Source of the DNA: Lutjanus erythropterus
Lineage: Eukaryota; Chordata; Actinopteri; Lutjaniformes; Lutjanidae
Reading direction: 5' to 3'
Assembly: GCA_020091685.1 (NCBI GenBank)
Contig: CM034600.1
Location: forward strand, 7,453,837-7,517,836
DNA length: 64,000 nucleotides
Positions 13,376-48,500 of this stretch are shown here, in pieces (within the stretch, counting starts at the first letter, position 1; the number at the start of each line of letters is the position of its first letter). The notes under the pieces are model-generated. The model did no database searches. It had not been told where the DNA came from and was given only the letters and a program-made list of their open reading frames with translations. A program made the translations under genes and the position numbers.

Positions 13376-16300
13376 AGTTAACTGTTGTGTCCAAGATATT
13401 ATGCAGCAACCCAACAGTATCCAGAGCTGCAGCCCAAGCAGGATGGGAGGGAAGTAAAGATTACATCTGGTAAAACCAGCATGGTTTGGTGGTATTTTGA
13501 TTTAGAAAATGAAACTAGGTTTAATGTAGGCTGTGTCAGAATAAAGTGGCATATAACCACTTGATGGGAGCAATGCGTCACCACATCAAACACAGGTATG
13601 TGACCGATCACCTGCAGGGAGAGCAGGCTGCTGGTGCTAGAAATGCTAATGTTAGCCACACTCTGCAAACCAATATGACTTTGTTAACTGCCCCTGAATT
13701 TTTTCTTACTTCTAATCTAGCCGACAAAGTTTGCGTTTAATCGACAGGGAATTAGTCATTAGGAACATCCTCAGCAAGCGTGGCTGTATACTCTTGTCTT
13801 CTTACTTAAAATTCTCTAGAGCAGGTTTAAGATAAAAGCTCAATGTAGATAAAAAAATAACTCTTCTCAAAGATAAAGTAAAATGACAAGAATCATGGCA
13901 CATCATGCACTGAACTTTGTGCCAAAGTACTCTCCTGTTTAATCATTAGTAAGGAGTATGAGCTGTCTCTTACCATATCTCTTCTTTACATCCATCCAAA
14001 CTAAGTTAATTCTCCTTTTTTTCCATGGCTGTCTTCTTCCCTCTCAACCCCTCTGCGATATCCATCAATCCTTAACTGTTGAGGGACACACTCATTTCAC
14101 AGGTCAATTAATTTTAATCAGAGTGTGTCAATTTAATCTGAGTTCAAACCGCTAGACGGACACTTTGTGAAAATCTCATTAACCTTCCCATTTCCAATCT
14201 GCTCACTTCATCAGCGGGGCAGAGCAGTGACTCAGTCATTTTCAAACCCACGCTTTTTCTGTTAGTAAACAAACTCCTGAATTTGGATAATTTCATGGGA
14301 AAAGAGGCGCCTGGGAGGGGAACACATCCTCGCACACCGAAGCTGACACTGACATTGACTTAGTCTCCTCACGTAGGTGTTTTAATAGCAATAACACCGG
14401 CAAGAAAATCAATGTGATCTCAAGATAAGGTTAAGGTTAAATGATTGCCATGAAGATACGGGATGACTGCAGCCAGAAGAACATAGAGAGCTCAACAAAG
14501 AGGACATGTAATGTAAGATAATGCAGAAGATGGTGCAGGAGATTAAACAGCAACAATAAAACAAGTGTCTTCATCAGACCAACTAAGTTTAGAAACTCTA
14601 TACTAATCTATATGTCCACACTGCAGATCACAATGTCTCAAAATGTCTTTTATGGTGCTGTGATCTTTTCTGAATTCAGCCATTTCACTCTGCATCAGAC
14701 AAATAACTGTTATTAAACTCTGCACGAGTTTGTTAAGAAAACAGCATAGAGGACAACAAGTCAGTCAGCCAGCAGACAGACAGCAAAACTATAATTAGTA
14801 TTTGTGGAGGTGCTTAAATTCAAACTTAACTATAAGTGATACTTCTGTTTGAAAAATTAGCAGCTACACTACCAAAAGAAGACCAAATGAAGCCACAACT
14901 GATTGTTTGCTTCAGGGACGACAACCCCCCCCCCCCCCAAAAAAAAACGGCAACTGTATAGCTGCACTATTCAATAGTTTAATGCAAGCAGTGAATCAAA
15001 TGACTTTGTGTATTTTCTTTGTGAGATGTGTCACTTGTGGTGCCATACCCACAGAGAATTTACCGTTTCTAAATCCCGCCCCCTTTTCTCTGTGCTCCAA
15101 CAACACTTGAGCGAACTTGGTTAATCAGTCAATTTTGTCCTTTTCCAATAAAAGTGGCATATAAGCCATCTTTGATTTCATGTGACGTGTGATTGGCCCA
15201 AATACCACAACTACAGCTAGCAGCTACATGCAGTCCATGGTATGGTGAGGTTGATGTATCTGACAGAGTTGGCAGTTCAACATGCAGAGATTAACAAAAC
15301 ATTCGTATCAATAGCTATACTGCAAGCCTGTGGCTGACAAAAATAAATACATTAAATACGGAAGGATTATTCAGGAAAATCTGGTAATATGAATTACATG
15401 AATCATTTCATCAAGCATGGAGAAAACATCAGGGTGCACAGCTCCACTGTCTAAAAAATGTATTCTGAAGTATTCTGTTTGTATCGGTATCACTTTAAGG
15501 GTACTGGTATTGGTACCGGTATCATATTTTTTTAAACAATACACAGGCCTGTATCTTAAACTAACTAATGTTATCAAAATGCTAGAAAACTAGCTAGCTA
15601 ATGATTGATGTAGATTAGCTAGCTAGTTGGCTAGCATTTTGACACTGCTAATTTTAATTGTGAATATATGTTGCTTTTACAGGTCCTCGAGCAACATCTT
15701 TTCAACATACTTCAATCCAGCATATAGCATAATTAAGTACAGGAAACCGGACCTGTTGGCCAATGTGCCAAATTTCTCAACTGTCATTGGAGGACAGAGC
15801 GAAAAGGGGCAGGACTTATGAAAGTGTAGTTATCCCCTGACTCTCTACTTCCCCTCAATTCATTGCAGTTTAGCAGTTCATTCTCATTAGCTCCCATGAA
15901 TTTGATTTCCAGCTGTAGCAGACAGCATTTTTCAGCAAAAAGCCATGATAATTTTAAACCCACTGTGCACTAGTTTGCGGCACCAAATGGTCCTTAAAAA
16001 ATGTAGCCTCCAACTGGTGAACATAGTGGATCATTTAGCAGCTACAGGGCCAGATATTTCCCTCAGAGCTAAAAAGAGAATACCTGACTTACATTTGTCA
16101 GGTGGCTAGTAACACATCTACAAATGTATTTATTATTAGTGGCACTGCCTACAATGTGCTAAAAAATCAATTGATGCTGCTTTAAAGTATTTGAGTATTA
16201 ACTTACTCAGTCTCAGTGCAGTTTGTGAAAAAGTCACTCCCATTTACACTTTCAAAATAAAAGTCTTGGGAAGGTGTTGGCACTAAAACCGCTTAAAACC

Positions 16301-36488: not shown

Positions 36489-36518
36489 ATGGATGTTGGA
36501 GAGCTCCTGAGCTATCAG
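36489..36518 (+). CDS. ctnnbl1: ctnnbl1 coding exon 1
   Basis: Ten codons, MDVGELLSYQ, identical to the start I recall for the mammalian protein. The donor is CAG|GTAGAT and the intron phase is 0. The start context is GAGATGG (G at -3 and +4). Confidence 0.95.
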
Positions 36519-42500: not shown

Positions 42501-45500
42501 TGTTCTAATTCAACAGGCAGAACCGGTGGATGAGAGCTCGGTGAAGAAAATGATCCTGACCTTTGAGAAAAGGTCGTACAAAAATCAAGAACTGAGGATT
42601 AAGTTTCCAGACAACCCAGAGAAGTAAGCCCATCACTGATGGTTCACAATGTTTTGCTCTTTTGGTCGTTTATTTTAATACCTGAAACGCTGTATGTGAA
42701 CGAAGACAAATTTAATTTGCACTTAACAAAGCTTATTACTATTTTTCTCAAACACATTAAACAGACGGTCTGAGCACAACTTCTATTTTATTGTCACTTC
42801 ACTGGCTCCCAGTAAAACAAAGAACTGATTTTAAAGCACTTCTTATTGTTTTAAAATCTGTTGGCACACTCACTGAATACACACTGGACAGATCCCTTAG
42901 ATCAACAAATAAAGGTCTCCTTACTGTAGATAGTTTATTCAAAATCAACTAATGATGCTTTCAGTTATTATGGTCTTATTCTTTGGAATTCTCTAGTACA
43001 TGAACTACACTGTGCTACAACAAAGCGTTCTTTTTAATATTTATTTTTTTTATTGTCAGTATAATTATTATATAATGATAATAATAATACCATCTTGTAT
43101 TTTGTCCTATATGTTTTAATATATGTAATACTTACTTATCTTATATGGTATTTTTTATGTTTTTGTCATGTGTGTATCTTTGCTTTTATTTTGAAGCATC
43201 TTGAATTTACATCATATGACTTGACTCACTATCACCAAAGTGAAATGTATTAGATTGATGGTAACATTGAATGCTAACATGCTAACCAAAATGCCTTCAT
43301 CTTTAAACCAGGTTCATGGAGTCCGAGCTGGATCTGAATGACATCATCCAGGAGATGCATGTGATCGCCACAATGCCAGACCTCTACCACCTGCTGGTGG
43401 AGCTCAACGCCGTCCACTCGCTGCTGGGCCTCCTCAGTCATGAAAACACTGATATCCTTTACCCAAATACTTAAAAAACTGAAAAATAAGCCAGTTATAC
43501 AAAAGAAGCAAAAACAGGTAAGGAGAACAGATTGGAATATTGAAGTGTTCAATATTCCAATCTGTTCTCCTTACCTGTTTACAGCAGAAGAAAACTTCAC
43601 AATTCATTGATTTCTTTTAGATGACAATGGTAGGGAAATTATTTAGTTCATTATTTACACCTTAAAAAGTTATTAAATTAAATAACCAGTTTCAAAGGCA
43701 CTGAAGTCTCTATTTGACCAAATGTGACTGGAAATTTTTACTTGCAGCTTTAAAGAAATGGTCAGTTTCTTAATTACAGTACATAAGTAAGTATCCCTCA
43801 TAATTTCAAAAGAAGTTCAGGCTGTAACCTGTTTCAGACTGTCTGATCAAAACTATCCATTCATCCTGTATCTAGAATTGTGGGGATTCCACATTAGTCT
43901 TTAAGAGATAAGACTGGTGATATTCTTTTTAAAAACAACAATGAATATGTGTAGCCAACGCCTGATATAGCTTATTCTGCTGTGCCGCAATGCTCCTAAA
44001 ACAATAGTTTTGTCACACTGTAGTGCGTTTTGAGTCAATCCCAAATACAAGGGTGTCAAATGAACAGGTGAAAATGCATTTTGTGAATGCATTTTTTACT
44101 GTTATTTTAGAATTGTTTGCTAAAAACTACAGAGCTAATCTGTTCTACAAAACGACTGACCCTTTAAAGGAGAAGTGTGTGATTTCCAGTGGCATCTAGC
44201 GTTCAAACCTTAGATTGCAACTAAGAGGATTTACCCTGACACCGCCCCTCTCTCACCAAGAGTAAGGTGGCCGTCAGTGGACAAAATTGCGAGCGAAAGC
44301 TATCTCACAACAAACTACAATTATGTGTGTAGGATGAATTACCTGTCCAGCAGAAAACAGGCAACCTCGGTGTCACTGTGAAAATGTTTGTCCTCCAGCG
44401 ATTTCCATCGTGTAAACGCTATGCCGATGTTGATTCGTGTTTTTGCCGTTTCCTGTCATGCTTGCGTTTACTTTCTTCGCGTCTCCGCTTCTTGGATGAT
44501 GGGGATTCACTGTCCGCTGCTTTTTGTTCTGGTACAGTGTATGTATGATCCTCCATTTGTCAAAACTGTGCCAGTCAAGGTTAAATGATCTGCCAGCAAT
44601 CACCCGCGTCTATCCTCCCCATCTACTTCCGTGTTTACGCTGCGGCGTCTACATAAGGTCGCCATGGGCTTCCCAAGAGTTTGTCCGCTCTGCGCTGCCG
44701 TAAACGGCGCAGGATGATGATCTCCATAAATCGACCCGACCGTATGTAACTATAAATGGCTATTTCTAAAGTAACGGGAACATATAGATTATGAGTTTAC
44801 ATTGATTGATAATAATAAATAACATACTTATATATAATATATTTCATTTATGTACATAAATTCCTGTAATTATTACACACTGGTCCTTTAAGAAAAAGAA
44901 AAGAAACTAAATTTTTGTTTTGTTTAGTTTTTGTTTAACCCCGTAAAAAAAAAAATAGCTTCAGCTTTAGTAGGACCGAATAGGCTGAGAGCCACAGTTT
45001 GTGACAGATGGACTAATGCATTGTTGGTTTTTGTCTTTGCATGGGTTTTGGTTTTGCTAATCTTATCATCAAATTATGATATAATATACCTAAACTTTCA
45101 TTAAAACTATGTAGCCTAATGTATCTGTAAATTTTAGTAAATGAGTGCAATTTATTATCAGCAGTTAAAAGGAGGGAGTGGGGAAAAATTGGTTGAAATT
45201 AAAATAAATTCATACAGCGTAAAAATACAAACACAATCAAACTATAGGATATATAAAAATTAATTTACTATATATATTATAACAATAATCAAGTCAAAAC
45301 AATTTAATTAATTTCTCTGTGTTCATCTTGAACACAGATTAAATAAGAGGATGATGACACTAAGGCTTGAGAAGCAGCTCATAATTGTACTACTGGTTTT
45401 GTTGCTCTCTAGAGGGAGCTGCTCACGGTCTAATAAATTGCCTCAAGTGATGTCACTTAAGTCTCTTGGGTCTGAATTCAACAAATTTGAAAATAAAAAA

Positions 45501-48500
45501 AAATTGGAGGAGTGTAGTAAGAAGAAAGTGAGCCTAGCAGACCTCTTTAGTCTGCTGCTCTTCTCTTCTCCAGGCTAGCAGCTCAAGGCTACATTAACTT
45601 CTATGAACATAACACACCTGAATCTCTTACAGAGCACTGTGGGTAATGTAGGCACCAGGTTTTAATTAAGATGACTAATGCTGCATTGAGTATAATCCGT
45701 CCATCATGTGTCTGACAGTGTTATAGCAGTATCTAAGGGCGGTGTGCTAAATCAGTGGAGTTCTCCTTCAACACAAGCTGATTGTCCTTAGCCTGAACCA
45801 CATGTTGCCATAGCAGTGGTGGACCTGCTGCAGGAGCTGACAGATATCGACACGCTCCACGAGAGCGAGGAGGGTGCCGAGGTACTCATAGACGCTCTGG
45901 TGAGTTCAGGATTTACATCAGTCTTTGATTAGATTGATGAAGCAGCACTTTGTGGCGTCAGTACTTCAGTTTCCTGGGCTCTGAAAGAGGCCGAGGGGAT
46001 TGATTAACGGTATTAACATATCAAAAGCAAGGCTTCGCTCGGCTCTCATTGACTGAAAGACTTGCAGACATTTAGACTTATTGACTGTTTGGATAACAAG
46101 CTTTTATCATGATACTGCTTCAGACCAGTGCCTGTCCACATGTGATATATTGATTGATACTGATACGATATAATCATTTTTCCTTTCTGGTAGAGCAGAT
46201 TATTAAAGGAACTATGCAATATATTTATACTATTAGTTAAAGAGTTGTAAGAATTTTGTATTTTTTCTTAGAAGTTGGCTTTTCTTTTCAGGATAGTGGA
46301 CCTAGCTTTAAAGGAGAAATCTTTAATATATTTACTTTGATAAATCATCAAATGACCAAGAGATGCCATCAAAGATCAAGGCCAGAATAACTGTTTTTGT
46401 TTGCCCATTTCTTGTCTATTTTTTTTGTTTAAATTAGAGTTTTGCCAAAAGAGTGAAGGTCTGTTTATGAGTGGTAAGAAATCATCAATGATCTCTTCAG
46501 AAGACACCGATGTTTATAAGGGTTAAGTTGAGCTATATGTTAATGGAGTCTGGCAGACAGTCACTGAACTCCAACCTCAGAGTGTGTGTTTTCATAACTG
46601 GGCTTTTGTTTTCAGGATAACAGGCTCAGCTTTACATGGACAGACAGTTGACCTTGTCACCAGAGATAGTGCTGTGCTTGTCTTGCGCTCATGTAGGTTC
46701 CTTCCCTGCACGTAAACCACCTGAGCTACAACTCGCTTTAACCATAGATTGTTTTTTTAATAGAACTTATTTAATAGTTATGACTATGGCTCCAACTGTT
46801 TGGACTGCTGCACTCATTTTTGAACAGTAGGAACTTATTGCTGCTTTTCATGTTACAAATTTAACATTATACAAATTGTTTTTTTTTACTAGTGGTATTA
46901 TTAAAAGTAATTGTCTATTAACTTTTGAAACATGCTGCAATGACTCTGTGCTTTCTGTCATGGTTAAATTATTATCATTAATTTAGCTAGTTTGCACTTT
47001 ATAGCTATATGCCAGTGTGAGTCGCCGTGGATATTAATTTACAAAGTAACAAGAACATAGTCAAGGGGAAGAAAAAATAAATTTTGAAGTGTAATGTCAA
47101 CTGTATAATTATAGCATCTCCTCTCACACCCTTTTCGGTTATCTAAAGGCTTTCTTCGTCACCCTCCAGCTGTGTCTGTTGGCGTCAGCTCTATGTTTAA
47201 CATCTCCTCTCTGTATCTGTTTTTTTTTTTGTCACCGAGCCTGTCGTGCGGTCTATGAACCAGGGAGGATTTTTGATGCCCCATTATGTGTGCTGACATT
47301 TAGAGCGACACAGACAAAGGTCAAACTACAATAATGTGCTGATATACCTATAATGGGGGAGAGAACTGCATGCCCCTGCCCCTTCACGGCCGTCACTGTG
47401 ACACTTCATCAGAGAATCTGTTGGCTTGAATGTGCTTTATGTCAGGTTACATCCCAGTGTCGTTCATCGACCGTGAATGAGCTGTTTTGTCTGATGTCTC
47501 AGGCACATTATTTAACCAGTGCCCAGTGGCTGGCTTCTCTTAAGGCCAAGCGGAGTGTTTTCAGAGTGAGAAAATTTCAACCTTTTAGAGAAGTGCTTAT
47601 GACCTGGAGTGACCATCACAGAAAAGAGCAGGTGCGGTGTAGTGCTGTGTGGCTTCCAACCACAGCACTCCTCTATCTGTTGTGGTAAGAAAAGATCACT
47701 TTCATAGAGCTCTACCCGACTTTTGTCAGTTGAATTGGATTTGGCTGTTCAGTACAAATAAGGACTTCAACTAATGTTATTTTCATTATTGATTATCTTT
47801 TGATTATTTCCTTGAATAATTGATAACTTGTTTGGTCTGTACGATGTCAGGAAATATTGATACGTGTTTCCCAAAGCCCACGAAATAAAATAAATTTCAT
47901 TCTCCACCTTATTTAGCTACAATAATCACAAACTCTTTCATCTTCAGTTACACCTCTGTAGCTTCCTTCCCAATCTGCCTTATGCTCTGTAAAAATGGAG
48001 GTTCATTTTGGCGCATATCAGACAACACAGATACCGATATAGCTGTGTTAGGCCAATATCTATTATCAATCGAAGTTATTTTCTAACTTTATTTTATACC
48101 CCATTGTTTTATGATGCCTGTGTTGTTTTTATTTGGCTCTTCTTTACTGCTGTTCTTTTCTGTGTTGTTTTATCTGTGCAGGGTTGTACAAGGTGCTTTC
48201 TGTGAAGCACTTTTTAACCTTCTTAAGAAAATTGCTCTATAAATAAAGTTTATTATTCTATTCTATATCAAACGAACGTGTCTCTGTGTGGCGTTTTGAA
48301 AAGCATCATGAGGTTTTTCTTGTTTGCAAGCTGGCTGGTTAGTGTCTGACAAGAACAATTGGATAAATGTCAAAGACCCTTGACAGAAAAAAAGCTTGTG
48401 TGTGTGTGAATTGGCTTGTGATGTGATAGTGGGCGAGCAGTAGCTCAGGTGGCTTTGCAACGCTTTCAGGATAAATGCATTATATAAATGCAGTCCATTT

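Follow-up and report, generated by a model that had tools for sequence, protein, structure and literature searches.

Intron 4 of ctnnbl1 in Lutjanus erythropterus as a probable U12-type AT-AC intron with a perfect hairpin near its donor

Introduction

Which spliceosome removes intron 4 of the ctnnbl1 gene in Lutjanus erythropterus, and what would the answer mean for expression of the gene? The question has an added edge because an earlier note on this DNA, besides calling the intron a U12-type AT-AC intron, described CTNNBL1 as a component of the spliceosome itself. That description is borne out by PMC13332222, which counts CTNNBL1 among the NTC proteins in the human spliceosome at its early activated stage, and by its presence as a chain in PDB entry 7abi. 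The window analyzed here is the whole 64-kb stretch of DNA, and all positions refer to it.

A U12-type intron in CTNNBL1 is already known for the human gene (PMC3564746, PMC8329584). Human CTNNBL1 is listed as one of 18 twintron genes by Janice et al. (2013, PMC3564746), who give lengths of 563 aa for its U12 variant and 376 aa for its U2 variant. The same paper describes the ancestral intron as U12-type in all 18 genes, with its presence highly conserved in vertebrates. In the CTNNBL1 twintron as presented in a review (PMC8329584), the U2-type intron lies on the outside.

Gene model and protein

Coding exons 1-10 of ctnnbl1 lie on the + strand between positions 36489 and 62401. At least one further exon follows past the end of the window in the first of two fetched stretches of 9901 bases, and the second fetched stretch gave no match. 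The joined protein of the window part, 359 residues, matches residues 1-343 of human CTNNBL1 (E 8.8e-171) and is also matched by the Pfam family CTNNBL (E 1.1e-117); the match to CTNNBL1 thus runs along the length of this window part. Across the junction of intron 4, the fish and human proteins align over 40 residues with no gap (E 3.8e-16). A protein search of the genome (937.6 Mb in 444 contigs) scored 11 candidates, and all eight of its matches were exons of this ctnnbl1 on the same contig. The same genome was also searched for another copy of the gene, including an intronless one, in which the junction could be read directly; none was found, and no relatives were confirmed in viral contigs or prokaryote genome contigs.

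Junctions and class of intron 4

Intron 4 occupies positions 43452..45801 on the + strand (2350 bases, phase 1). It begins with the 5' splice site ATATCCTTT (43452..43460) and ends with an AC acceptor (45800..45801). The flanking exon 4 (43312..43451, with a phase 1 end, ACTG) and exon 5 (45802..45899) were placed by junction trials and protein match. At each exon edge the trials reached about 25 bases into the exon and about 60 bases beyond it, and a junction was accepted if it gave an exact copy of 13 junction residues. For intron 4, three junction pairs keep LSHENTDVAIAVV, with ends AT-AC, TA-CA and AT-AT, and only AT-AC is a recognised pair of ends. The window holds nine complete introns, of which eight have GT-AG ends and intron 4 has AT-AC; GT-AG was among the solutions for each of those eight. 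A wider trial at intron 4 found 31 GT-AG or GC-AG pairs, using nine donor positions, that remain in frame without a stop, and every one of them loses or replaces junction residues. The earlier note had placed the intron at exactly these coordinates, from ATATCCTTT to AC, and had held that no GT-AG reading keeps the protein, the AT-AC junction giving HENTD-VAIAVVDLL. Both claims stand, as none of the three exact junctions is GT-AG.

The donor of intron 4 agrees with ATATCCTTT at 9 of 9 positions and conforms to the published U12-type consensus ATATCCTT given in PMC2831892; the intron combines this donor with an AC acceptor and with the lack of any GT-AG junction that keeps the protein. The word ATATCCTTT occurs once on both strands of the 64 kb, and shuffled sequences contain it 0.62 times on average, so that its mere presence carries no statistical significance. 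Its weight comes from its position, where the protein demands a junction, and not from its rarity. Scored as U2-type sites with approximate weights, the ends of intron 4 reach -7.9 and -6.2 bits; on the same weights, nine other donors in the window score 3.9 to 11.1 bits and eight acceptors 4.8 to 14.0. No polypyrimidine tract is visible by eye directly upstream of the AC. According to PMC10639083, minor introns of animals and plants are most often in phase 1.

Sequence, reading frame and protein match together support the claim of a U12-type AT-AC intron in ctnnbl1. We regard it as very highly probable that intron 4 is U12-type, of the AT-AC subtype, and most likely the intron known in human CTNNBL1. 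Because vertebrate introns strongly tend to keep their type (PMC2831892), intron 4 would be orthologous with the human U12-type intron, and it presumably occupies the same position.

Branch site, minor snRNAs and proposed splicing route

A candidate U12 branch site, TCCTTAGC, lies at 45785..45792 on the + strand. Its proposed branch A, at 45790, is 11 bases before the last base of intron 4, which is where the earlier note had put it. The site is imperfect: GTCCTTAGC matches the consensus TTCCTTRAY at 7 of 9 positions. Compared with the published TCCTTAAC (PMC2831892), TCCTTAGC agrees at 7 of 8 positions and has one difference. The pattern TCCTTRRY shows no enrichment, with 11 occurrences in the window against a mean of 18.4 expected.

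The genome contains a U12 snRNA gene (128.4 bits, gathering score 53) and two U4atac genes on different contigs, at positions 1501-1630 of locus L011 and 1501-1627 of locus L012. The U4atac genes score 96.6 and 94.3 bits, both over the Rfam gathering score of 53. The U12 snRNA carries GAGUAAGGAAAA, and a pairing drawn by hand between it and the candidate branch site consists of UCCUU-AAGGA, a bulged A45790, a G-U wobble and a C-G pair. A duplex program gave -6.5 kcal/mol for the candidate and -7.4 for the consensus, and it did not place the bulge-plus-GC pairing. In predicted local folds, the candidate branch site is paired and the donor of intron 4 partly paired.

In the route that these elements suggest, U11 would recognise ATATCCTTT at 43452 and U12 would pair with TCCTTAGC, leaving A45790 bulged out. 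The minor spliceosome would then join ACTG to ATGTTGCC, giving HENTD-VAIAVVDLL. If intron 4 is retained, the reading frame gains six residues and meets a stop at about 43472 (SHENTD-ILYPNT-stop), and minor-spliceosome activity would therefore limit the amount of full-length mRNA. Judged from the sequence, the U12-type sites of intron 4 are probably those in use, and the ctnnbl1 mRNA probably depends on the minor spliceosome. Slow removal of intron 4 may also tune the level of CTNNBL1, an idea that draws on general literature on minor introns (PMC8329584). No support for a need of CTNNBL1 in minor splicing was met in the literature consulted, and a feedback loop is thus not supported.

A perfect hairpin in intron 4

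At base 61 of intron 4 begins a perfect hairpin of 33 bp with a 3-base loop, located at 43512..43580 on the + strand (arms 43512-43544 and 43548-43580) and pairing at 33 of 33 positions. The window holds three inverted pairs of at least 20 bases within 100 bases of each other, and this hairpin is the only perfect one. In 15 simulated sequences with the same dinucleotide make-up, the longest perfect stem ranged from 9 to 12. The predicted folding energy of the hairpin is -52.0 kcal/mol, and the surrounding 181 bases have a z-score of -9.97. A search of both strands of the genome with the hairpin and its surroundings (221 bases), which skips very common words, returned only the hairpin's own locus (one candidate scored), and no further copy was found elsewhere in the window. 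Viral contigs had no match to 28 bases taken from the hairpin arm, and phages had none to the intron.

A microRNA identity was considered and rejected. At a loose threshold several Rfam microRNA models match the hairpin, but the best of them, mir-3202 (RF03799), reaches 45.6 and 44.6 bits where the gathering score is 90, and the whole window had no match at the gathering score. A tRNA scan found none. A mirtron from GT 43518 to AG 43584, 67 bases long, was likewise set aside, as splicing would be improbable from a donor that is paired throughout.

Two other repeats were observed. A long inverted repeat at 15574-15642 has 29-base arms that are 93% complementary and 11 bases apart. Inside intron 4, the stretch at about 44162-44892 has similar inverted ends, with CTTTAAAGGAGAAGTGTGTG on the left and CTTAAAGGACCAGTGTGTAAT on the opposite strand on the right; this stretch resembles a non-autonomous DNA transposon.

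Alternative readings of the intron and the hairpin

Ends of the AT-AC kind do not by themselves prove the minor route (PMC2831892), and intron 4 might instead belong to the U2 type in spite of such ends, as certain introns of sodium channel genes do, and be spliced out by the major spliceosome. In PMC2831892, however, U2-type AT-AC introns have G at position +5, whereas intron 4 has C (ATATC). Together with the full match to ATATCCTTT and the low U2 scores of both ends (-7.9 and -6.2 bits), this makes such a reading exceedingly improbable. A separate proposal is that a nearby GT-AG pair is used as well, as the outer U2-type intron of a twintron, and yields a slightly shortened protein. A splice from 43437 to 45813 stays in frame and turns LLSHENTDVAIAVVD into LLTVVD, and an outer U2-type intron is listed for human CTNNBL1 in PMC8329584. 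The candidate donors in exon 4, however, score at most 3.5 bits, with 43437 itself at -3.5, and no acceptor close to the junction exceeds 1.9 (approximate weights). The human U2 variant reported in PMC3564746 is 187 residues shorter than the U12 variant (376 vs 563), unlike the slight shortening proposed for the fish. Use of an outer intron is very unlikely here, and removal of intron 4 as a U12-type AT-AC intron is the reading that we retain.

The hairpin raises a further possibility. Its left arm contains a U2-type donor-like candidate, CAG/GTAAGG (43515..43523, +, with GT at 43518), which has the top score among 3907 GT donors on the + strand (approximate weights) and is predicted to be fully paired. 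A strong U2-type acceptor-like candidate at 45554..45573 (+), with its AG ending at 45573, is the best in intron 4 and ranks 4 of 3953 on the + strand. Joining 43517 to 45574 keeps the same early stop. A nested U2-type route from GT 43518 to AG 45573 might compete with the U12 route, be suppressed by the hairpin and produce an mRNA with an early stop. The ranks of the two sites and the predicted pairing of the donor speak for it, and its topology matches that of prospero and SRSF10 as presented in PMC8329584. On the other hand, the donor-like site at 43518 was chosen post hoc, CAGGTAAG is not above chance (3 found against 1.86 expected, two of them being the arms of this hairpin), and the arrangement reported for human CTNNBL1 in PMC8329584 is the opposite one, with the U2-type intron outside. 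We consider the nested route very doubtful. The same low standing applies to its extension, a structure-gated twintron in which the hairpin would hide the region's strongest U2-type donor, and in which ctnnbl1 would change over from the minor to the nested U2-type route, with its early stop, once the hairpin was opened or bound. If true, hairpin gating of a competing donor would make this intron a clean test case, provided by nature, for the way in which minor introns avoid the major spliceosome. A masking role is speculative, and an accident is the likelier explanation. Local inverted copying during replication can give rise to hairpins, and this one is most likely a recent accident, perhaps of such a kind, with no role in splicing. 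Its 33 of 33 pairs, its 3-base loop and the failure to find another copy in the 221-base genome search or in the window are consistent with an accident. Against it stands the setting of the hairpin: the only U12-type intron found has its donor close by, and the donor-like site with the top score lies within the hairpin.

Comparison with known systems

Intron 4 resembles the nested introns of prospero and SRSF10 in having strong U2-type donor and acceptor candidates within an AT-AC U12-type intron (PMC8329584). It differs in that the ctnnbl1 sites are candidates only and in that the donor lies within a perfect hairpin. With U12-type AT-AC introns in general, intron 4 shares the ATATCCTTT start, the AC end, the lack of a GT-AG solution, phase 1 and a candidate branch-like site 11 bases from its end; the difference lies in the branch site, TCCTTAGC rather than TCCTTAAC. 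A further parallel is the U12/U2 twintron of human CTNNBL1 (PMC3564746, PMC8329584), where the gene is the same and removal of the U12-type intron likewise gives the full-length protein. In the fish, by contrast, the outer U2-type candidates are weak and the strong candidates lie inside the U12-type intron. The ctnnbl1 gene analyzed here provides one more well-supported case, from a further genome, of a minor intron that is known for this gene in human.
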